Of a stretch of 64,000 nt of DNA, positions 12,637 through 59,644 are shown piece after piece. A program made the translations under genes and the position numbers. Source of the DNA: Pyrobaculum sp. 3827-6 (GTDB lineage Archaea > Thermoproteota > Thermoprotei > Thermoproteales > Thermoproteaceae); contig NZ_JAOTQN010000003.1 of the NCBI RefSeq assembly GCF_025641885.1, positions 62,001 to 126,000 of the forward strand, in the 5' to 3' direction. Within the stretch, counting starts at the first letter, position 1. Each line of letters begins with the position of its first letter. The notes beneath the pieces were generated by a model. That model made no database searches. It was not told the origin of the DNA and was given only the letters and a program-made list of their open reading frames with translations.

Positions 12637-13419
12637 CGCCGGCAGTGGAGCGGCGGCCATCAGCCGGCGCAGAACTAAGCCTCAGGTGAGGGCCGCACAT
12701 CTGCCAGACGGGGCCTCCCCCGCAGAGCGGCGCCGCAGCATCTACACGCCTCAACCCAACATCACACCGGACCTGCACACATGGCCACATCTACGCGCGC
12801 AGACTCGTAAAGACGCTGGACGGGGCCGTGAGGTGCAGAACCCCTCTACGTAGCTGGCGGTATTACCGACTACGACACCACCGAGATGTTTTACAACGGT
12901 GAGAGGCGGCCAACGCCCCTCCCGGCCGGTAGGCAAGCAGGTGCGGTGGAGAGTCCGCGGAGGCGAGTTTCAAAGGCCAGTGCACAGATCCTTAAGCCCT
13001 GATTCCCCGCCACAGCCTCACCGCTGGACGCGGCGCATAGGGCTGGCTGGCGTGCTGGTTTAAATGTATGGCGCCGCTTTCTAGAAATGCGACTTTTTGG
13101 ATATACTTTGAGTACATCAGATTTTATAGAGGCGGCGCGCGTCAGCGGTATGACGCCTCGGCCGAGGACTATCTCCGAGACGCCGCCACTGAGCATAAGC
13201 GGCAGACCGCGTTTACGTAGAGATGAAATCTGCAATGGGGAGGCGGGTAGTTGCGTTGTACCTCCGCGGCGTGCGAGTCTAGCTAGACAAAGACACAGCG
13301 CCACCCTTCCCGAGAGGGATAGCCCCCGCTTGGAGTTCAGAGCCACAGGCACGTTACCCCTCGTCTTAATACTAATGCTGTGGAGCCACCTAGAAAGACT
13401 GACAATAAACAACGATAAG
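12637..13419. other. Long non-coding stretch with a weak coding relic
   Basis: No complete gene is supported. Around 12850-12930 the plus strand reads LYVAGGITDYDTTEMFYNG, which looks protein-like but has no start and is broken upstream. A TTTAAATG box at 13060-13067 sits before an ATG at 13087 in frame with the downstream protease, but the intervening peptide looks non-coding and the protease has its own promoter. The rest is GC-rich and shows nothing recognisable. Confidence 0.45.
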
Positions 13420-13434
13420 AATACGATTCGTATT
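13420..13434 (+). promoter_or_regulatory. Palindromic operator copy 1, upstream of S1 protease 1
   Basis: AATACGATTCGTATT is a perfect 7-bp inverted repeat around one centre base. Eight bases later comes the TATA box TTTATAT (13443-13449), then ATG 13471. The same palindrome followed by GAGTCAA and a TTTAT box occurs at 18343 and 20061, and inverted at 16328. The position just before box A suggests a regulator site, either an activator or a repressor. Confidence 0.75.
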
Positions 13435-13470
13435 GAGTCAAATTTATATCATAGAATATTTCAAAATCGC

Positions 13471-14382
13471 ATGTCACTAAAAAGTATAATACAAAAAAGT
13501 GTACGTCTCAGAGGTGAGAGGCCTTGGAGGGGAATGTTAGTTGGTAAAGAGGCTTTTAGGAAAGGCGCGCCGGGGCTAGGTGAGCTGGGAGTTGCTGTGG
13601 CGTTGTTTCTCGCGGTGTCTGTATATGGGCTGTCGCTTACAGATAGGTGGGATAACCTCGCTGGAGGTGTCCAAATCGAGGTAGGTTATTACCAGACCCC
13701 CGACCGGTACTTCCTATATGGGTACTGCAGTCTTGGGGCGCCGGTGTATTGGTACGAAGGCGGGGCGCGGGTATTCGGCTACCTCACAGCTGGCCACTGC
13801 ACAAATAGTCAATATCAAGACGTCGTGCGCCAGCCGTACAGAGATTTAAATGCGCCTGACAGCAACTATATTGGAGATGTGATTAAAGACAGCTACTATA
13901 CAGGCCCTACTCCGGTGGTGGACGCAGCTCTAATAAAAATAACAACATCAAGCAGAACTGTAAAGCCGTGGATCGCCACCTCCGCAGTGGGATTCCAGAC
14001 AGACGCGCTCGTAAACTGGTACTACACAGTGACTAATGCGCCACGAGACCCGGGAGGTAGCGGATATTCAAAACTCGGATTTAGATGCCAATACGACTCA
14101 AGTCTCATTATCTACGATCTTTACATAACGCAGGACAATGCCTTGGTCTATAGAGTAATTAAAAGAGGCGGAGGAATTATAAATGCTTGCCCAGGTGATA
14201 GCGGAGGCCCTGTGTTCTACATGTGGAGCCAAAGAATCGACTCTATGACTGTGTATTATGCAAATATACTTGGTATCGTAAAGGGCGGCAACGCATACGC
14301 ATATCCTACAGTGCTATTTGTAACTCCCATTGACGAATCTTTAAATAGGTTACAAGTATATCTATATACGTATAGGTCATGA
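13471..14382 (+). CDS. Trypsin-like (S1) serine protease, membrane-anchored or secreted
   Basis: 303 residues from leaderless ATG 13471. A basic N-terminus precedes one hydrophobic helix (about 38-56), so the protease domain lies outside the cell. The catalytic triad is visible: His109 in LTAGHC, Asp151 in VVDAALIKI and Ser244 in CPGDSGGPVF. Cys86/Cys110 and Cys206/Cys240 could form the streptogrisin-type disulfides. The gene is AT-richer than the flanking housekeeping genes, which suggests transfer. It overlaps the next gene by ATGA. S1 proteases are uncommon in archaea. It is paralogous to the protease at 20112-20909. Confidence 0.88.
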   Translation: MSLKSIIQKSVRLRGERPWRGMLVGKEAFRKGAPGLGELGVAVALFLAVSVYGLSLTDRWDNLAGGVQIEVGYYQTPDRYFLYGYCSLGAPVYWYEGGARVFGYLTAGHCTNSQYQDVVRQPYRDLNAPDSNYIGDVIKDSYYTGPTPVVDAALIKITTSSRTVKPWIATSAVGFQTDALVNWYYTVTNAPRDPGGSGYSKLGFRCQYDSSLIIYDLYITQDNALVYRVIKRGGGIINACPGDSGGPVFYMWSQRIDSMTVYYANILGIVKGGNAYAYPTVLFVTPIDESLNRLQVYLYTYRS

Positions 14383-16307
14383 GATCAGTATTATTTTTAC
14401 TAATTATAACAGTGATGGTATTAGCGGCGCCTCAGATTAAAGTCGTATATGACTTCAATGGCGTGGTTGTAAACAAAACGTGTTATTTGGTCAAAACACA
14501 AGGTCTACCTGTATATATCATCGTCTCCTCAGTGAATGTTAACGAATCTGCTAAAATATCACTCGTAAGGTCCTTTATAAGTGAGTTGAAGAAAATGCCG
14601 GGGGTATACATTCGAGGAGATGAGACACTCAGCGAAGACGTCTTGCGGAGACTAAAGGAAGAGAGCAGCAGGGCAGAGGTATGGCTTGAAGTGTACGTAT
14701 TTAGTAACAGGTCGTTGGTGAACCATATTGCGGAGAGGGCTAGAGGACTAGGCGTCGGGCTGACTATTTACTACATCGACGCCGCAGATCCGGGCCCGTG
14801 GCAAGGCCGTGAAAAAGCTATTGAAATGATGAGCTCCTGGGTAAATGAGTATGTTAAGAGATATGGAAAAGACGCCTACTTCGGCATTGGGTTTATACTA
14901 GATATGCCTATAGTAACTCTCACAATCTTTAACGCCACTGAGGAACAGGCCGATAAAGTTGCGACACGAGTCAGAGAGATCGTGCCGTGTAGATACCCTG
15001 TGGTGTACTTTACAGACAAGCTATTTCTATTGCGAACCGCATCTATAGGCGAGGCGACTGCCGCCGCCCCCCAGGGGCGCGGGGAAAACGCCACCGCGGC
15101 TCCCACCTCAGATGTGAATGACGCCAATATGAACGTCATCTCGGGTATTTATATATGGCCAATAGCGCTGTTGGCAATTTCAGCCACATTGATAATACTG
15201 CTATTGCATAAGAGAACGAAGATTAAGTCAGGCGTAGTAATGAGATCTCTTTTCGTCTCGCTCCTACTGGCGTTATTTGCACTGGCGGCGCCGCCTGTGT
15301 TGGTGTTTCCAGATGATTTCAACATAACGGCGGCGGGGAATTACTTAATCATCGAGCCTAAGTATCCGGAGGGCATCTGGCTAGTCATGGGCGGCTTGGA
15401 GGGCGCAGTGGAGTCGTATATGGGGGTTGTGTTTAACTACACAGATCCACGCCTCTCCTACTGGCTCAAGGGGGTTGTGGACGACTTGTTCCCAGACGCC
15501 TTAAGCACCGGCGTCTTTTCTCACAAGCCGCCGGTGGCCTACGCCGTGGTTAAAAAGAGGCCGAGCGAACTTAAGCCGGTTAACGCCACCATAGTCGTGG
15601 TAGTAGTGCCGTGGGCAGACAGGAGGCCGGAGAACGCCACGAAGTACCTCGATACGGTGCTGAAGAGACTCTATAACACGAGGTGGGGAAACGAGACGAG
15701 GAAGATCACCGACAAGATAAACCTAGCCCTATTCAGGCAGCTGTGTGAAGAGAGGCGGGAGCACGTAGAGAGGATAATAGAAAAGTCTGACAAGCCCCAG
15801 CGCATTAAATGCGGCGGGGATCTAGATATAAACGACACAGAGACGAGAAGAGAGCTAGTACTCCTTCTCTCTCTGCTTGAGTGGAGCGCCGCGTCGATAG
15901 GGGCTGTGTCTGAAAAAGGCGACTGGGGCGTCCCGACGGTTAGTGTGGGGTTTGCCAAATCTGTCTGCCGCGGGATGAACAAGACGGAACTTGCCGAGGC
16001 CGTTGCTAAAATTGCCGAGGAGGCGGGAGGCTACCCCTTCATACTAGAAGTGGGATGCGGCGTGGGGCCCTTCAGGTTCTTGGCAAAAATCATAGGCTAT
16101 TCGCCCCTATACTCCGACCTGCCCCGGGACCCTGAGGAGTGGCTCGCCTCTGTCGGCGCGGCGTATTTAGACGAGGCGCACGGCGTAGGGGCAGTGGAGG
16201 GGGGCACGTGGAGCCCCGCCGCGGCCGCAAGCCTTGCGTCTACAGCCGCCCTGGCGGCGATGGGCGTCTTGGCGGCGAAAGCCCGGCGCAGAAGGCAGAG
16301 CCCCTAA
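14379..16307 (+). CDS. Duplicated type I membrane surface protein fused in one frame
   Basis: 642 residues made of two similar units. Unit 1 (about 1-287) has a signal peptide (MRSVLFLLIITVMVLAAP), an extracellular domain with several NxS/T sites, and a membrane helix (about 257-276) followed by basic residues. Unit 2 starts at Met288 (ATG 15240) with another signal peptide (MRSLFVSLLLALFALAAPP), another exterior domain and a C-terminal helix ending in RRRRQSP. The bases before ATG 15240 read TAGTA out of frame, as expected if a stop once separated two overlapping genes. It is translationally coupled to protease 1. Its repeated lumenal pattern also resembles the protein at 20906-21763. Function unknown: anchor, inhibitor, foldase or substrate of the protease. 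Confidence 0.7.
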   Translation: MRSVLFLLIITVMVLAAPQIKVVYDFNGVVVNKTCYLVKTQGLPVYIIVSSVNVNESAKISLVRSFISELKKMPGVYIRGDETLSEDVLRRLKEESSRAEVWLEVYVFSNRSLVNHIAERARGLGVGLTIYYIDAADPGPWQGREKAIEMMSSWVNEYVKRYGKDAYFGIGFILDMPIVTLTIFNATEEQADKVATRVREIVPCRYPVVYFTDKLFLLRTASIGEATAAAPQGRGENATAAPTSDVNDANMNVISGIYIWPIALLAISATLIILLLHKRTKIKSGVVMRSLFVSLLLALFALAAPPVLVFPDDFNITAAGNYLIIEPKYPEGIWLVMGGLEGAVESYMGVVFNYTDPRLSYWLKGVVDDLFPDALSTGVFSHKPPVAYAVVKKRPSELKPVNATIVVVVVPWADRRPENATKYLDTVLKRLYNTRWGNETRKITDKINLALFRQLCEERREHVERIIEKSDKPQRIKCGGDLDINDTETRRELVLLLSLLEWSAASIGAVSEKGDWGVPTVSVGFAKSVCRGMNKTELAEAVAKIAEEAGGYPFILEVGCGVGPFRFLAKIIGYSPLYSDLPRDPEEWLASVGAAYLDEAHGVGAVEGGTWSPAAAASLASTAALAAMGVLAAKARRRRQSP

Positions 16308-16327
16308 AAACTAGTTTTTCCATACTC

Positions 16328-16342
16328 AATACGAATCGTATT
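16328..16342 (-). promoter_or_regulatory. Palindromic operator copy 2 (inverted)
   Basis: AATACGAATCGTATT on the plus strand is the reverse complement of the copies at 13420, 18343 and 20061, including the flanking ACTC (GAGT reversed). It lies about 27 nt upstream of the TATA box near 16369-16377 that serves ATG 16397, so spacing and orientation differ from the other copies. Confidence 0.65.
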
Positions 16343-16396
16343 CCTATCCCTACAAATGGATGTAGCAACTTATATATTCGTTCTTAGCCTTTCCAT

Positions 16397-16753
16397 ATGA
16401 GTAGGATATTGCTGTTGTTTATCGTCTTGACATTTTTAATAATAGCGGCAGAGCCAGACATCACGAGGGTTGAGGTGCCTATCTCCGGAACCTTAAGCGC
16501 GTCAGCGTCGCGGCTCTACGGGCCTTATAGTAGCGTAACCGCTGTCACAATTTCGCTAGATTTCAAGGGCGGAGAGTTGTGCGCCGGGTACGTGTATGCC
16601 GATGACTTCAAGGGGAAGTATAGTTGCTCCACCTCCGGTCGCCTCTACGTCTCGTATTCTGTGGACTGGACTAGGGATATATACATCCTCGTCTACAACC
16701 CCTCCTCCAGCTCGGTGAGCTACAGCGGCACGGCGACGTTGTACATATGGTAG
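16397..16753 (+). CDS. Small secreted beta-rich protein
   Basis: 118 residues from ATG 16397, with the TATATATT box about 25 nt upstream. A signal peptide (MSRILLLFIVLTFLIIAAEP) is followed by about 95 residues of alternating strands with Ser/Tyr-rich turns and one Cys pair (LCAG and YSCS), ending in TATLYIW. This looks like a small beta sandwich of the PPC/GOLD type. It overlaps the next gene by 7 nt. Function unknown; it belongs to the protease island by promoter and genomic context. Confidence 0.65.
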   Translation: MSRILLLFIVLTFLIIAAEPDITRVEVPISGTLSASASRLYGPYSSVTAVTISLDFKGGELCAGYVYADDFKGKYSCSTSGRLYVSYSVDWTRDIYILVYNPSSSSVSYSGTATLYIW

Positions 16754-17307
16754 ACGTATTTAAGGCGTATAGGATGTGCGTAGGCGGCTTTGCCTCATAT
16801 ATCGCCTCAGCGGCGTGGCTGTGGCTTGCGGCGTTTTTGGCGTATCTAGGTCTGTGGGGGATCAGGCTGGCGGTGGTGCTGGCGGCTGGCCTTGCCGTAG
16901 CCGCGGCCCTCGGCCGCGTCTGGCGGGTGGAGCGTAGCGTGTTGGGGGTACTAAAAGCGGCGAGCCTCTTCGCGAACCACGGCGATATCTGCATCGCGGC
17001 GCCTTTAGCTAGACGCTTCGCCTTGGCCGTCATGGCGGTGGCCTTGGCATACGCCCTTTACGAAAGCTACTTGTTAGCGTCTATAGGGGCAACCGTGACT
17101 GTCGCCACCACGTCAGACGGGCGGGCTGTGCCGCTGGTGGTCGACGGCGGCGTCGTGTTGGGGATGTGGCAAGGCCCTCTTTTATACGTCGCCTTCGCCA
17201 GCGCGGCTACGCTCTCCGCGTTTGTTTTTAGGGGGGTCTCCGCCTACGTCGAGTCTTATGTAAAGCTGAGAGAGGTTTATGGAAGGGCGAAGGAAATTCT
17301 TACCTGA
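16747..17307 (+). CDS. Membrane protein of the protease island
   Basis: 186 residues with hydrophobic segments at about 14-35, 38-56, 89-111 and 134-158, and a charged C-terminal tail (VKLREVYGRAKEI) probably in the cytoplasm. It overlaps the secreted-protein gene before it (7 nt) and the winged-helix gene after it (29 nt), so the three form one operon. No family is recognised. The arrangement of secreted protein, membrane protein and DNA-binding protein could be a signalling relay, but that is inference. Confidence 0.6.
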   Translation: MVDVFKAYRMCVGGFASYIASAAWLWLAAFLAYLGLWGIRLAVVLAAGLAVAAALGRVWRVERSVLGVLKAASLFANHGDICIAAPLARRFALAVMAVALAYALYESYLLASIGATVTVATTSDGRAVPLVVDGGVVLGMWQGPLLYVAFASAATLSAFVFRGVSAYVESYVKLREVYGRAKEILT

Positions 17308-17566
17308 CGTATACACGGCGGCTAGGATTCTACACGTCCTTAGCCAAAGCCCTCTGCCAACCGCCGGCGTAGCCGCCGCGGCTAGGACAAGCTACGAAAA
17401 GGCTCTCCAGTACCTAACCCACCTGGCGCAGAGAGGCTTGGTGGCCAGCGTAGACGGCAGATGGCACCTAACAAAAGAGGGGCAAGCCGCCCTACTAAAA
17501 CTTGAAGAGGTGGTAAAAACGCTAGCCGGCATAAACCTCAGCGACGCGGTAAGAAAGAGACGCTAG
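17279..17566 (+). CDS. Winged-helix regulator, candidate binder of the palindrome
   Basis: 95 residues. The sequence ARILHVLSQSPLPTAGVAAA, then SYEKALQYLTHLAQRGLVAS and DGRWHLTKEGQAAL is a standard winged-helix fold with recognition helix and wing, ending in a basic tail. It is the last gene of the operon that starts at 16397 and is the only DNA-binding gene in the island. That makes it the natural candidate for the operator shared by the four island promoters. A strong hairpin follows its stop. Confidence 0.7.
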   Translation: MEGRRKFLPDVYTAARILHVLSQSPLPTAGVAAAARTSYEKALQYLTHLAQRGLVASVDGRWHLTKEGQAALLKLEEVVKTLAGINLSDAVRKRR

Positions 17567-17573
17567 ATATGTC

Positions 17574-17609
17574 TGACCCGCCCCGCTCCCCGGCGCTCGG
17601 GGCGGGTCA
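17574..17609 (+). terminator. GC-rich hairpin after the winged-helix gene
   Basis: TGACCCGCCCCG (17574-17585) pairs perfectly with CGGGGCGGGTCA (17598-17609) across a 12-base loop, 7 nt past the stop codon. It lacks a T-run, so it may be a 3'-end stabiliser or transcription-end structure rather than a classical terminator. Confidence 0.5.
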
Positions 17610-17666
17610 TAGACGCCCTCTTCCCCTTGGCGGGGTCATGGGGCCGGCCCGGCACGGCGGGCTCTT

Positions 17667-18190
17667 TCAGCTCCCTGGGCTCCATTTCGTAGGTGAAGAT
17701 AGCATATAACCTTGCTTCACTCTTCTCAACCTAATTGTCGACGATCTCTCGGCCTTGCCCATTCTGACAAGCCACTCGAATTTCCAGAACCGCCTGTGGG
17801 GCCAGAGCTCCGCGGCGTGCCTCCCAGACATGAGGCGTATGGACACCTCCGTGAGGGAGCTGAGGTGCCACGCGGTTTCGACAACGTATGGCGCCACACG
17901 CCTCACCTCCGGGGGCTTCCCTCCAGTTTCAACCCAGGCATTGTAGGTCTCGACAGCATCTTTCACTGTTTATTGCTGGTAGGCGAAGGGGGGCCGAGCC
18001 GACTCACGGCCTCCTCGCCTAGTGCCATACGCTGAAGTAGCTGGCTCTCCTCCCTCCGTAGTTCTGCACTAAGGAGTCCACCACGGCCTTCTTAGCCAGC
18101 CTATAAGCCCCTCCAGCTCAAGGTATTCCAGTAGCTGGTTGCCGTCCAGCAGAAGCGGTACCGCGACAGACCCCGTTGCCGCCACGTCTA
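17667..18190 (-). pseudogene. Degraded gene between two parts of the island
   Basis: Minus-strand coding-like pieces in different frames: about 18190-18020 gives LLLDGNQLLEYLELEGL and SLVQNYGGRRASYFSVWH, and 17966-17667 gives a 99-residue frame containing VETAWHLSSLTEVSIRLMSG. No single frame joins them. The original family is not recognised. The region ends beside a hairpin that may mark a former mobile element. Confidence 0.4.
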
Positions 18191-18213
18191 AATTGAAGCC
18201 TGCTAAAAACCTT

Positions 18214-18235
18214 ACCCCGCCCTAAAGGGCGGGGT
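18214..18235. repeat. Perfect GC hairpin ACCCCGCCC-TAAA-GGGCGGGGT
   Basis: A 9-bp perfect stem with a TAAA loop. Hairpins of this form occur near the ends of IS200/IS605-type elements and their TnpB genes in thermophiles. No transposase remains here, so this is at most an end relic. It could alternatively be a transcription-end structure. Confidence 0.4.
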
Positions 18236-18342
18236 TTATAGTCGCCCTATCAAGGCCTACACGGCCCCCATTTTTAACGTAGAAGTGGCCCGGGCAACCC
18301 GCAACCGTGACGCCGAAGAAACTGATGATGGACGGCAATGCG

Positions 18343-18357
18343 AATACGATTCGTATT
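18343..18357 (+). promoter_or_regulatory. Palindromic operator copy 3
   Basis: AATACGATTCGTATT, followed by GAGTCAAA and the TATA box TTTATTA (18366-18372), then ATG 18395 about 26 nt on. The match to copy 1 covers the palindrome, the GAGTCAAATTTAT flank and the preceding GA. Confidence 0.75.
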
Positions 18358-18394
18358 GAGTCAAATTTATTACAGATAACTTTCAAAAGCTATC

Positions 18395-19170
18395 ATGGAA
18401 CACCACAGATCAGATAGAAATAGTTCCAGTAGAGTTAAAGTTGTTGCAATGCGGATAATTGCGCTCGTAATCTTGGCGCTCAGCGCGGCCCAGCTATATG
18501 CTGACACTTGGCAGAACTGCAATAATATATACATAGTAAATAAAGAGCGGTATGACTCCTATGGGAATTATATGAAAATTGATTATGGAATTTGTTTACA
18601 GATCCAGTACTATGACTACGTGAACGGGATGAAGATGTATCCGTGGATATTTGTAATGGCTGTGCATACAGATCCCAATGAGTTGGCTGGATGGAGGGTA
18701 ACCGCCTCGGGAGTAACGACAGATGCGGCGCCACAATGCAAGACGTCAGGATAGACCTTATGTCTTCAAACGCCCTATACTCCGGGCTTCTAGGCACATA
18801 CTACGCTCCGGTGCCCGGGAGGACAATAGACGACACGTCAAGAAAATGGCAGTCATTTGAAGTCTACGTAATACTGCGAAATGTTCAAATCGGTATCAAA
18901 TACTCATGGGAAGATTTGATCACAAAGAACGAAACTAGAGTGTCTGCCCTCACCACCACGAGGACCATGTGGGATAGGGCGCTGGCTACGGGCGGTTTAT
19001 ATTCAGACAGCGCATGGGCTTGGAAATTCGCGGCGGCTGCCTACGTAGATCCCTCGCCCGGAAGCGTGAGGGTGGTATACGCCGCGAGAACCAACTACTG
19101 GAAGGATGAGTGGCCGTCGTATCCATGTACCTATATGGCATATGCATACGACGTCACGTGGACAGTATGA
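18395..19170 (+). pseudogene. Secreted protein gene split by a frameshift
   Basis: The leaderless ATG 18395 opens a 119-residue frame with a signal peptide (MRIIALVILALSAAQLYA, residues 19-36). It stops at 18752-18754, just after TTDAAPQCKTSG. The protein-like sequence continues in another frame (from about 18735: MQDVRIDLMSSNALYSGLLG) to TGA 19168-19170. The two frames overlap (18691-18754). The second half has no promoter and no signal peptide of its own, so one gene of about 255 residues seems broken by a one-base change. Two separate coupled genes, or frameshifting, are less likely. The next gene starts in ATGA overlap. Confidence 0.6.
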
Positions 19171-19772
19171 GAACCGCGGTGTTGTTAATCGCCGTCGTCG
19201 CTGTTGTGTTCGTTGCCATATACACCTCCGGCTATCTACAGCCCCAGGCCCCCAAGCCTTCCATCGGCGAGCTGGAGGAGCTCCGCCTCTTCATAACCCC
19301 TGAAAACGGCACCAAGACCTCGAAATGGGAGCTCTGCGGCATGAAAATCTACGGCAAGGGGGCGTACTATAAGAAGGGCGACATCATAACGTCGCCTATC
19401 AAAGACATAGAAGAGCTACCGGAGAAAATTAGAAAGGACTACTCGGATCCAGTGAGGGCATACGTCGCGGGGGGTATAAGAGCGGATAAAGACGGCTATA
19501 TCTACTCCATATACTTCCACAGGCCGGAGGGAGGTGCGGGTCTGGCAAGTACGTCCGTACTGATAGAAGAGCGTAACGTAACGGCGATAGGGTCGGGCGG
19601 CGTAGAGTCAGCTACGCTGAGGGTACGCGGCGTTGAGTACAGCTTCTGGCTAGGCACGGTGGAGAAGATCACGTCTAAAAATGCCACTGTGTACATAGTC
19701 TGCGGCATAGATAAGGAAAAGGTGGAGAAAAGGCTAGGAGAGATAAGAAACGAGCTAGAAAGCAAGAAGTAA
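19167..19772 (+). CDS. Membrane-anchored surface protein
   Basis: 201 residues from ATG 19167 (overlap with the preceding stop). One N-terminal helix (MRTAVLLIAVVAVVFVAIYT) anchors an exterior domain of mixed strands and helices with NGT and NAT sites and a Cys pair (ELCGMK and IVCGID). It ends in a charged helix (EKRLGEIRNELESKK). A T-run follows the stop at about 19785-19790. No family is recognised; it completes the third operon of the protease island. Confidence 0.6.
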   Translation: MRTAVLLIAVVAVVFVAIYTSGYLQPQAPKPSIGELEELRLFITPENGTKTSKWELCGMKIYGKGAYYKKGDIITSPIKDIEELPEKIRKDYSDPVRAYVAGGIRADKDGYIYSIYFHRPEGGAGLASTSVLIEERNVTAIGSGGVESATLRVRGVEYSFWLGTVEKITSKNATVYIVCGIDKEKVEKRLGEIRNELESKK

Positions 19773-20060
19773 GCCTAAAATCCTTTTTTAAACCTCCTTC
19801 TCCCCCTTCCCCCGTATACCACAGAAGTGACTGCGCATTCGCAACGCCGCTGTTGCAGAATTCCAGAGCGGAGCGCTGGGTTGTGCTGGAGGAATCTATC
19901 TGCGAGGGTCAGATTCGCCGGTAGGCGCGGATTTTACATCCTGTCGGGGGGGGGGCGTCGGATCCGCTACATCTTCACGAGGCTATTTACCCCACCCAAA
20001 CACCCCCCTATACGTGACGGGCATAGCCGCATTTGCGATCATATGGCAAATGGCGAGACG

Positions 20061-20075
20061 AATACGATTCGTATT
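20061..20075 (+). promoter_or_regulatory. Palindromic operator copy 4, upstream of S1 protease 2
   Basis: AATACGATTCGTATT followed by GAGTCAAG and the TATA box TTTATATTA (20084-20092); ATG 20112 is about 25 nt from the box. Spacing from palindrome to TATA box is the same as in copies 1 and 3. Confidence 0.75.
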
Positions 20076-20111
20076 GAGTCAAGTTTATATTATAGAGTGT
20101 TCTAAGATCAC

Positions 20112-20909
20112 ATGTCTGAAAAAAGAATATATCAAATAATAGTTATAGCCGGCTTAATAGGTGTAATATTGTTTGTATACGCCGCAACATACCCGAATCA
20201 GAAGTTTAGACCCCTCGTCGCTGGCGTTCAATATGAGGCGAGATGGGGACTGTTTGAAATCTTCGGAGGGATATGTAGTCTAGGTTACCCCGTAGCCTTA
20301 CCCACGTCGCCAAATCAGCCATGGGGTTACGTTTCAGCGTCGCATTGTATTGAGTCAAGAATAGGTGTAAGTATTTATCAGCCCTCGAAAGGGTCAGATA
20401 CCTACATAGGGACGTCGAGATCAGATAAAATTTCCGTATCTCTCGACGTTTATGCCATAGATATTGTGAACAAATCTATTATTAGCAATAAAATAATTGT
20501 TCTACCAGTTGGGACTACATATACAATATCAAAATATTATACAAACTCTGAATTGGGAAATATGATAGGAAGTACTATATGCAAAACAGGTAGAACAACA
20601 TTGACGACGTGTGGAGATTTTGCAGATTTTAGATCAAGCGATGGACGGGGATGGGTAGTAGCTTCCAGTCCTTATTCATCATGTGACTATAGGCCAATAA
20701 TCGCCGGGGAGGGTGACAGCGGGGGAGTAGTTTGGTATTTTTATGGTGACGGCACAGCAGTAGCCGGAGTGCTCTACAGCATGGACACTGGAAAATGTTG
20801 TAGGACGTTTACGACGTGGGACGGAAGTCAAGTTTATGGTTGTGATAATTTCTTCTTCCGTAGTGTTGATACTGTTAATCAAGCTCTCGGAGTAGTGGGG
20901 TGGAGATGA
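20112..20909 (+). CDS. Trypsin-like (S1) serine protease, second paralogue
   Basis: 265 residues from leaderless ATG 20112. One hydrophobic helix (about 8-25) exports or anchors the protein. Triad residues: His79 in VSASHC, Ser203 in AGEGDSGG, and Asp112 or Asp117 in LDVYAID. Cys55/Cys79-region and the later Cys157, Cys167, Cys191, Cys229/230 and Cys244 suggest disulfides. AT-rich and with rare-looking codons compared with its neighbours, pointing to transfer. It has the same operator and promoter as protease 1 and, like it, is coupled by ATGA to a membrane-anchored partner. Confidence 0.85.
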   Translation: MSEKRIYQIIVIAGLIGVILFVYAATYPNQKFRPLVAGVQYEARWGLFEIFGGICSLGYPVALPTSPNQPWGYVSASHCIESRIGVSIYQPSKGSDTYIGTSRSDKISVSLDVYAIDIVNKSIISNKIIVLPVGTTYTISKYYTNSELGNMIGSTICKTGRTTLTTCGDFADFRSSDGRGWVVASSPYSSCDYRPIIAGEGDSGGVVWYFYGDGTAVAGVLYSMDTGKCCRTFTTWDGSQVYGCDNFFFRSVDTVNQALGVVGWR

Positions 20910-21763
20910 GGTTTTTGGTTTTGTTGGTTTTGGGTGGCGTGTTGCTCAGCGCGGGTGTGTTGTATGTAGACATGTCTAGGTATGTGGTTGAGGTTGAGAC
21001 GGCGGGCGGCCCCTCCTACATATTTACGGCGCCGATAGACGACTACGTTAATCTCCACAAGTGGCTTGAAGAAGTTGGCCTTGTGGAGAGGTACGACAGC
21101 CCTATTCGCAAAAAGGCCAGGGAGGCGCTCGGCATAAGATCGGAGGAGAATGCAACTCCAGAGCAGTGGAATGCCCTTGTTAACCTCAGCCTCTACATGA
21201 TGGGCGACAAGCTGAATGCGGTGGAGGAGGCGCTGAGGAAAGCCGGCGTCGAGGTTTTGGGAGTAGGCCCCGGCTCCGGCAAGCCGCCTATAGACAAGGC
21301 AAACAACGGCACTGTAGTCGCCTTTGTCAGGCTGGGCGGGAGGGGGGAGGTTTTAAAAGAGCTGGAGGGGGTGGCCGCCGCATACAACATATCTATAGTC
21401 GTGGTGGATCTGCCTAGAGTTAGGGCTTTTGAAGGGAATAAGACTGTGGACTCGGTGCCCGGCCTCGGCGCGCCTGCACACGGCCTGGTTTCCATCACGA
21501 TCTTTGGCCGTTTTGGCGACGTGGCCTACTATGTAGGGAAGCCGGACGAGGAGACGGTTAGGTCTGTGGCTAGGTATCTACGGGAGAGGAAGCTCTGCGG
21601 TGTCGCCGTGGTGTTTGTCCCCAGCGAGAGGTACATCCCACGCCTAGCCCCCGCAAGCGGAGGCGGCCCCGGAGAACGCCAAAGCCTCCTCCTAGCCGCA
21701 CTTGCCGCAGTGGCCACACTAGCGGCCGCCGCCCTCCTACTACACAGAGGCTCTAGACGTTAA
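20906..21763 (+). CDS. Type I membrane partner of S1 protease 2
   Basis: 285 residues from ATG 20906 (ATGA overlap with the protease). An N-terminal signal helix (MRFLVLLVLGGVLLSAGVLY), an exterior alpha/beta domain with N-glycosylation-type sites, and a C-terminal membrane helix (LLLAALAAVATLAAAALLL) ending in RGSRR. The segment ITIFGRFGDVAYYVGKPDEE, followed by CGVAVVFVPS, resembles units of the 14379-16307 protein (LTIFNATEEQADKV, then CRYPVVYFTD). The pairing with each protease points to a protease anchor, inhibitor, foldase or substrate. Base composition becomes GC-rich again within this gene. Confidence 0.65.
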   Translation: MRFLVLLVLGGVLLSAGVLYVDMSRYVVEVETAGGPSYIFTAPIDDYVNLHKWLEEVGLVERYDSPIRKKAREALGIRSEENATPEQWNALVNLSLYMMGDKLNAVEEALRKAGVEVLGVGPGSGKPPIDKANNGTVVAFVRLGGRGEVLKELEGVAAAYNISIVVVDLPRVRAFEGNKTVDSVPGLGAPAHGLVSITIFGRFGDVAYYVGKPDEETVRSVARYLRERKLCGVAVVFVPSERYIPRLAPASGGGPGERQSLLLAALAAVATLAAAALLLHRGSRR

Positions 21764-58616: not shown

Positions 58617-59644
58617 GGCGCCACTCCGAGGGCTCTTAGGGCGGCTGACCACGCCACTGCGGCTACTCCCAGCGCCAGGAGCCCGCGCCAGCCGAGGACG
58701 AGGGTGTGGTCTAGCCGGAGGACGGGCATGGCGGCTCTCAGGAAGGCGTAGAACAGCATGAGGGCTGTGGTTTTCGCCAGCACCCACGCGGCGAGTATGA
58801 GGTGGCCGATTATGTCGTGTGGCCAGGGCCCCGGCGCGTAGCCCGGCAGGGCCCACCCGCCGAGGAAGAGTATGGTGGCGAGGAGGGAGTAGGAGAAGGT
58901 GGCGTAGTAGGTGCCGCCGGCGAAGGAGAGAACCAGAAACACGCCTCCGTAGTCGCTGTACGGCCCCGTGGCGACGTCGCCTTCGTAGTCGGCTATTTCG
59001 AAGGGGAATCTGGCGGTGGCCATTGCGGCAACTATTATGAAGACTAGGAAGGCCAGGGGGTTAAGCAACGCGCCTGTGAGGGCTGTCTGCTTATTCACAA
59101 TTTCCAGGGGGTTTAGGGTGCCGTATAGGAGGGCCATGGCGAGGAAGGAGAGGATGAGGGGTAGCTCGTAGGCGGCGACGAGCAGGGCTTCGCGGGCGGC
59201 GCCTATGTAGGCGAATTTATTGTTGACGGACCACCCGATGATGACGACTGATATGGAGACTAGGAGGAGTATGACTAGGGAGAAGACGAGGCCGTATGGG
59301 AGGAGGGCGGGGTCTTTTATCAGTCTGAGGTCTGGGGTTAGGGGCAGGAGCAATGATGCGCCGAAGGCGAGGGTTACGAATATTGGGGGGCCCCATACGA
59401 ATAGTATTCTGTGGGCGCCGCGGGGCACTATCGGCTCGCTTATGATGAATTTGAAGGCGTCTGCAAGTAGCTGGAGGTAGCCGCCGAGCCGCGGGGAGAC
59501 ATGGAGGGGGCCTACCCGCATTTGGACCCTCGCAGCGGCCTTTCTCTCGAACCACACTACTGTCAGCAGTATGACGCTCGACACCGCGAAGAGTATAATG
59601 AAAAACCAGAGGCGGGGGGAGAGGATTAGGGACGAGAGATCCAT
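58613..59644 (-). CDS. nuoH: Complex I-like subunit NuoH
   Basis: 343 residues with about eight helices. The signature regions VWFERKAAARVQMRVGPLH and ALLVAAYELPLILS (quinone-binding Glu/Arg loop) and PFEIADYEGDVATGPYSDYG are intact. It forms the quinone channel with NuoD. Leaderless ATG 59644 with box AATTAATAAT near 59663-59672. Confidence 0.93.
   Translation of the reverse strand: MDLSSLILSPRLWFFIILFAVSSVILLTVVWFERKAAARVQMRVGPLHVSPRLGGYLQLLADAFKFIISEPIVPRGAHRILFVWGPPIFVTLAFGASLLLPLTPDLRLIKDPALLPYGLVFSLVILLLVSISVVIIGWSVNNKFAYIGAAREALLVAAYELPLILSFLAMALLYGTLNPLEIVNKQTALTGALLNPLAFLVFIIVAAMATARFPFEIADYEGDVATGPYSDYGGVFLVLSFAGGTYYATFSYSLLATILFLGGWALPGYAPGPWPHDIIGHLILAAWVLAKTTALMLFYAFLRAAMPVLRLDHTLVLGWRGLLALGVAAVAWSAALRALGVAP

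Follow-up and report, generated by a model that had tools for sequence, protein, structure and literature searches.

A 20-bp palindromic promoter element preceding genes for predicted exported proteins in Pyrobaculum sp. 3827-6, and a cassette-encoded winged-helix protein as its candidate regulator

Membrane-linked one-component regulators, in which a membrane protein and a DNA-binding protein are made together, serve the sensing of external conditions. To our knowledge, no membrane partner is known for the archaeal regulators TrmB/Tgr, Ptr2 and TFB-RF1. Motifs of TrmB, Ptr2 and TFB-RF1 located upstream of the B recognition element (BRE) and the TATA box mark activation (PMC4158304), and semi-palindromic cis-elements upstream of the TATA box are described as controlling the promoter of the secreted serine protease (halolysin) gene sptA of Natrinema (PMC6085418). 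In the Thermoproteales, both the control of secretion and the transfer of outside signals to promoters are poorly described. Here we report on a palindromic element found in front of genes for predicted exported proteins in the hyperthermophilic archaeon Pyrobaculum sp. 3827-6 (genome G000, 2,302,599 bp), and on a cassette of three genes, the last one encoding a winged-helix protein, which lies behind one of its copies. The stretch analysed, hereafter called the window, is the 64-kb region G000:C3:62001-126000, to which all coordinates without a contig name refer. Judged from sequence, the element is probably the operator of a dedicated factor for an exported-protein regulon, and that factor is most likely the winged helix of the cassette.

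Scanning of the window with the 15-mer AATACGATTCGTATT yielded exact copies at 13420, 18343 and 20061 on the forward strand and at 16328 on the reverse strand, precisely as listed in an initial annotation of this DNA, and no further match with up to one mismatch was detected in the 64 kb, which also agrees with that annotation. With up to three mismatches, 10 matches (both strands, five places) were obtained versus 0.54 expected; the one further, weak match, at 59394, was taken as chance, being inside a NuoH-like coding sequence. The whole genome (2.30 Mb) contained five exact 15-mers, the fifth at G000:C3:188281, against 0.0007-0.001 expected per genome from Markov models of the window (orders 1-3). 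Allowing one mismatch genome-wide added no site, and the reversed-pattern control likewise gave zero. The true unit is 20 bp long, GAATACGATTCGTATTGAGT, and consists of a G, the palindrome and GAGT; the latter is considered part of the element and not of the core promoter because it is kept beside the inverted copy, away from BRE/TATA. A genome scan with this 20-mer at up to three mismatches added solely a degenerate sixth copy, GAATAGGATTCGTACTGCGTCAATTATATATT, at C3:183520. The copies at C3:188281 and C3:183520 are each more than 100 kb away from the cluster in the window (island 1), whose palindrome can be read as AATAC-GATTC-GTATT. The copies in the window are as follows.

13419..13438, forward strand: predicted operator copy 1, GAATACGATTCGTATTGAGT, preceding the operon of the S1 protease; TATA from 13443, start codon 13471
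16324..16343, reverse strand: predicted operator copy 2, in inverted orientation ahead of the cassette operon; TATA from 16371, ATG 16397; identical in the sister species
18342..18361, forward strand: predicted operator copy 3, before the secreted-protein gene at 18395; TATA from 18366
20060..20079, forward strand: predicted operator copy 4, preceding the gene at 20112 for the second protease-like protein; TATA from 20084

The three direct copies of the window are followed by GAGTCAA and then TTTAT, with starts at 13471, 18395 and 20112, a shared context that had already been noted and was reproduced here. In the five direct G000 copies, including the degenerate one, and in the extra copy of the sister species, TATA starts 16-18 bp and the start codon lies 43-45 bp from the palindrome centre, all direct copies thus occupying the position typical of archaeal activators, upstream of BRE/TATA. 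The inverted copy is more distal (36-38 bp from centre to TATA, 62 bp to the start codon). In the cassette promoter a weaker inverted repeat, CTACA-N6-TGTAG (16347-16367), is found at the usual operator place, and as a second site in that promoter it is suggestive only. Over-represented, fixed in position and conserved before functionally related genes, the element is almost certainly the operator of a regulon. The initial annotation had proposed a dedicated regulon marking an island; five exact copies and one degenerate copy, all before genes for exported proteins and in rigid geometry, support the regulon, which is however not confined to the island. Nor did a search of the genome and its relatives with one mismatch allowed reveal any spread into unrelated contexts.

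The sister species G003, about 95% identical across the island, carries all six copies and a seventh at C1:111478. Over the six orthologous pairs the 20-mer showed 0/120 substitutions, versus 40/883 in the upstream and 75/765 in the downstream flanks (42 of the 75 from one pair with a large deletion), and by our own arithmetic the chance of 0/120 changes at 4.5% divergence is about 0.004. Among 45 genomes of the order, exact or one-mismatch copies of the 20-mer were found in G000 and G003 and in no other. Within the genus, counts at up to three mismatches were overall no higher than those of the reversed control, so that only near-exact copies are meaningful. In G001 and G006 the S1 orthologues have promoters that lack the 15-mer; a near-match in G006 (C2, 1414) was rejected, as it falls within a coding sequence belonging to a small element. 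Scanning all genome contigs for the exact 15-mer was uninformative, with scattered chance matches in unrelated taxa among the matches listed. In another family of the order, GAATAGGAATTGTATTGTGT is repeated one to four times per genome in G012, G013, G014 and G015 (loci L145-L148, L158, L160, L164-L166 and L170).

These comparisons also bear on two explanations that dispense with a bound regulator. It is very improbable that the copies are a mere trace of recent promoter duplication with no protein bound to them. Promoter and start regions have been duplicated in a second island (see below), and two island-1 targets share their first codons after the start; similarity within island 1, however, largely ends at TATA, yet no base of the 20-mer differs among five copies and across both species, the inverted copy shares the 20-mer only, and in G003 the element and its TATA remain before the second protease gene although most of this gene is deleted (L175:13486-13711). 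That the 20-mers are recombination sites inverting segments in a shufflon-like switch, an idea raised by the one inverted copy among four clustered identical ones, is scarcely credible: island order and copy orientation are alike in G000 and G003, no orientation difference between the relatives being seen, two unlinked copies stand in the same promoter register with a fixed TATA distance, and no recombinase was recognised among the neighbouring open reading frames (ORFs).

As to the direction of control, activation is favoured because the site lies upstream of BRE/TATA, as in TrmB, Ptr2 and TFB-RF1 (PMC4158304), and by this analogy the net effect would, with modest preference, be activation. 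Repression is unlikely but deserves weight, the bound protein then blocking access of transcription factor B (TFB) and TATA-binding protein (TBP) just upstream of BRE, and the distal inverted copy mediating a weaker self-repression. Only about 8 bp separate the end of the palindrome from TATA, contact with BRE being possible, and a more distant own copy would suit a partly self-limiting repressor. Published archaeal activator sites, however, lie upstream and repressor sites downstream of BRE/TATA (PMC4158304), and the direct copies are at one fixed helical phase to TATA, which is typical of recruitment.

The inverted copy precedes the cassette, which comprises the following genes.

16397..16753, forward strand: cassette gene 1, small exported beta-rich protein; 21 invariant columns with the homologues of four other cassettes
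16747..17307, forward strand: cassette gene 2, membrane protein with multiple transmembrane (TM) segments; four hydrophobic segments, homologue in all cassettes
17279..17566, forward strand: cassette gene 3, winged helix (HTH_45, Sso10a-like), overlapping gene 2 by about 28 nt

The three genes overlap as an operon with the winged-helix gene last. The winged helix scored 32.3 bits against PF14947 (gathering cut-off 25.5, E = 1e-7) and is hence a member of HTH_45, and the best PDB match of its profile was Sso10a (1r7j, E = 3e-6); with 27.3 bits versus a cut-off of 60 it falls outside the Sso10a family NF053610. Its only close orthologue (99%) is in G003, the other genomes having paralogues of at most 46% identity, and element and orthologue are confined to the same two species. 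Strong gene-1 homologues across the family adjoin TM and winged-helix genes in the same order, apart from one divergent arrangement in G038. The product of 17279-17566 had been named as the candidate regulator in the initial annotation, and this candidacy is supported by its operon behind the inverted copy, by the presence of an orthologue only where the element occurs, and by homologous gene pairs elsewhere that stand beside operators of the same class, both at their own promoter and at secreted neighbours. With good confidence, we regard this protein as the putative binder of the element.

The operator class became apparent in other cassette promoters, where palindromes lie just upstream of TATA: GCATAC-TTTGA-GTATGC in G042, ATGTAC-TTTTA-GTACAT in G038 and GTAC-TCCGA-GTAC in G008. 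Thirteen cassette loci, island 1 excluded, were scanned for xTAC-Nn-GTAx' placed in register with a TATA box and a start codon, the expectation being taken from 511 kb of sampled genomic control. A spacer of n = 5 gave 10 matches versus 2.1 expected (Poisson 7e-5, an optimistic value because some of the loci counted had inspired the pattern), n = 2, 3, 4 and 7 gave none and n = 8 gave one. Nine of the 10 matches with n = 5 were at promoters of cassettes, TM-winged-helix operons or neighbouring secreted genes. In G003 (L229), TTAC-N5-GTAA is present at both a TM-winged-helix operon and a convergent secreted gene, and in G006 (L222) class operators are present at both a TM-winged-helix operon and the neighbouring S1 protease; only the L229 and L222 matches came purely from the later scan and they are the fairest tests. 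Further class operators were found at a secreted gene in L227, of the same clade, and in G038 at cassette gene 1 and a secreted gene. GAGT was dropped as a motif common to other islands, where mostly a different part of the operator (centre and right arm) is involved. In L222 (5345-8835) the reading frame for the TM protein ahead of the winged helix seems to be disrupted, and the nearby S1 protease is without an intact in-frame N-terminus; this regulon of G006 may be decaying. The window element is best read as one diverged operator type of the class xTAC-N5-GTAx', and each cassette as a putative autoregulated membrane-linked regulator with its own operator.

A second cassette was found in the same genome at C1:895-918k (C1:895618-917569; L223, L304), accompanied by additional exported proteins and by an S1 protease that shares about 28% identity with that of island 1. 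The units of this island 2 share a different promoter block, TTTACGTTGTAYCTCCGCCGCTAT...GAGTAYRYAARNYYTATA, with 66 bp conserved. This type-2 block occurs before 11 units in the genome, which encode the paralogous cassette, S1 proteases or further exported proteins; two of the copies are unlinked (C1:601321 and C2:15257) and precede exported proteins, one of them an S1-like protease. The regulon thus appears to have been duplicated, islands 1 and 2 having paralogous regulators, different promoter elements and paralogous targets. The type-2 block is also located before the cassette in G001 (in a diverged form), G003, G004 and G005, while G007 has a repeated block of its own. The winged-helix tree placed G041, of another genus, in the type-2 clade, and the block was then found before the G041 cassette; since cassette and promoter are adjacent there, both may have been transferred jointly. 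Island 1 itself contains a probable relic of the type-2 system.

13250..13281, forward strand: probable decayed type-2 block, upstream of the S1 gene; 18-mer with 1 mismatch

For this block 0.13 matches are expected at up to three mismatches, and its counterpart in the sister species has two mismatches. It suggests a past regulator switch, by which the island-1 protease would once have belonged to the other regulon.

Several points tell against the winged helix as regulator and against the operator class. Element and regulator are linked in one island, and their shared phylogeny is accordingly not independent evidence; a single-sequence prediction of the winged-helix structure had low confidence (predicted local distance difference test, pLDDT, 61) and was set aside as a fold-search query; relatives of Sso10a can act as chromatin proteins (PMC4941522). 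The class pattern was partly derived by eye, a spacer of n = 6 also gave 3 matches versus 0.42 expected, and the type-2 blocks, whose left arm is weak and which have an additional element upstream, fit the class poorly. Operator and regulon could be real with the regulator encoded elsewhere, for example a protein of the TrmB, Lrp or MarR type, the winged helix being a regulon member or a chromatin protein, the role in which its best structural relative Sso10a has been studied. The haloarchaeal TrmB motif TACT-N7-8-GAGTA (PMC4158304) superficially resembles the xTACT..GAGTA of the relatives. We consider such a regulator distinctly unlikely: the TrmB spacing differs from the spacer of 5 favoured here, which does not match a TrmB regulon, the operator class tracks the TM-winged-helix pair in divergent lineages (L222, L229 and L227), and orthologue and element are restricted to the same two species.

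With the cassette winged helix as regulator, a dimer would bind the two half-sites AATAC and GTATT, whose centres are separated by roughly one helical turn. On target promoters this dimer would sit upstream of BRE/TATA and probably help to recruit TBP/TFB, and at its own promoter the inverted distal copy would provide autoregulation. The membrane protein, co-translated with the regulator, would sense outside conditions, perhaps by reading the beta-rich exported product, and gate the regulator, a step for and against which we see the chances as evenly balanced. More tentatively still, and with somewhat less than even confidence, the cassettes may represent an unrecognised archaeal regulator family, which would autoregulate and control secreted proteases and surface proteins via TATA-proximal xTAC-N5-GTAx', and whose duplicates would have diverged in specificity to give two insulated regulons per cell.

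At least six genes or operons for predicted exported proteins lie behind the element, two of them encoding protease-like products, and the four window copies all precede units for secreted or membrane proteins, as the initial annotation had it. Besides the cassette, these units comprise the following genes.

13471..14382, forward strand: secreted S1 (trypsin-fold) serine protease; PF00089, 29.7 bits versus a cut-off of 20.6
14379..16307, forward strand: 642-aa exported protein, overlapping the protease stop; hydrophobic segments, ORF intact in both species
18395..19170, forward strand: exported protein, frameshifted here, intact with 258 aa in the sister species
19167..19772, forward strand: gene 2 of the 18395 unit, product exported or membrane-anchored; N-terminal hydrophobic segment
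20112..20909, forward strand: another secreted product resembling a protease; GDSGG and His motifs, BLAST match to the S1 protease of 13471 with E = 2e-4
20906..21763, forward strand: gene 2 of the 20112 unit, exported product anchored in the membrane by its C-terminus

Two S1 proteases had been annotated. That of 13471-14382 is a clear member of S1/PF00089 with the motifs LTAGHC, DAAL and GDSGGP, whereas the product of 20112-20909 has only motifs and weak similarity, with no Pfam match, PF00089 included, and a score below the cut-off of the NCBIfam Rv1815 family. Sequence searches of the PDB found no relatives of the two proteases or the beta-rich protein, Pfam and NCBIfam scans gave no family match above cut-off for 14379-16307, 19167-19772 and 20906-21763, and defence-system models returned nothing of note. 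The product of 14379-16307 shows, in both species, two apparent secreted modules in one frame, with signal-peptide-like starts MRSVLF... and MRSLFV..., and the frameshift in the 18395 gene reflects either a pseudogene or a misassembly at a short run of A. The products of the fifth and sixth units are 571 aa and 737 aa long, the former having no family match in the Pfam scan. The first product of each unit has an N-terminal-proximal hydrophobic segment, except that the sixth copy is ambiguous, its in-register ATG being out of frame with the 737-aa ORF, a point that counts against the proposed reading. In this unit (L013:573-620; orthologue in L176) the frame mismatch, shared by both species, immediately precedes six consecutive T and could be due to a frame break, slippage or a downstream start.

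The system would constitute a compact module of one regulator, one membrane partner, one operator and six target units. As the genome also contains a paralogous module under a different promoter element, specificity could be exchanged between the two and mapped, and the operator class provides a criterion by which the regulon can be recognised in further species. Literature searches, of partial coverage, retrieved no description of the cassette or the operator. The nearest published parallel found is the sptA promoter, which concerns a single, subtilisin-type gene of a haloarchaeon, with no multi-unit regulon or linked cassette reported in the part of that paper cited here (PMC6085418). TrmB/Tgr, Ptr2 and TFB-RF1 resemble the present system in having a site just upstream of BRE/TATA, but motifs and protein families (by profiles) are different and the targets here are not those of sugar metabolism. 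The candidate regulator shares its fold family with Sso10a (NF053610; 1r7j) and HTH_45 (PF14947), yet unlike Sso10a its gene overlaps a multi-TM gene in a conserved manner, it is associated with a fixed promoter palindrome, and it scores below the NCBIfam cut-off. Unlike the membrane-linked one-component regulators, the system presented here consists of two separate, overlapping genes, for a membrane protein that would gate its partner and for a DNA-binding protein, accompanied by an exported beta-rich protein.

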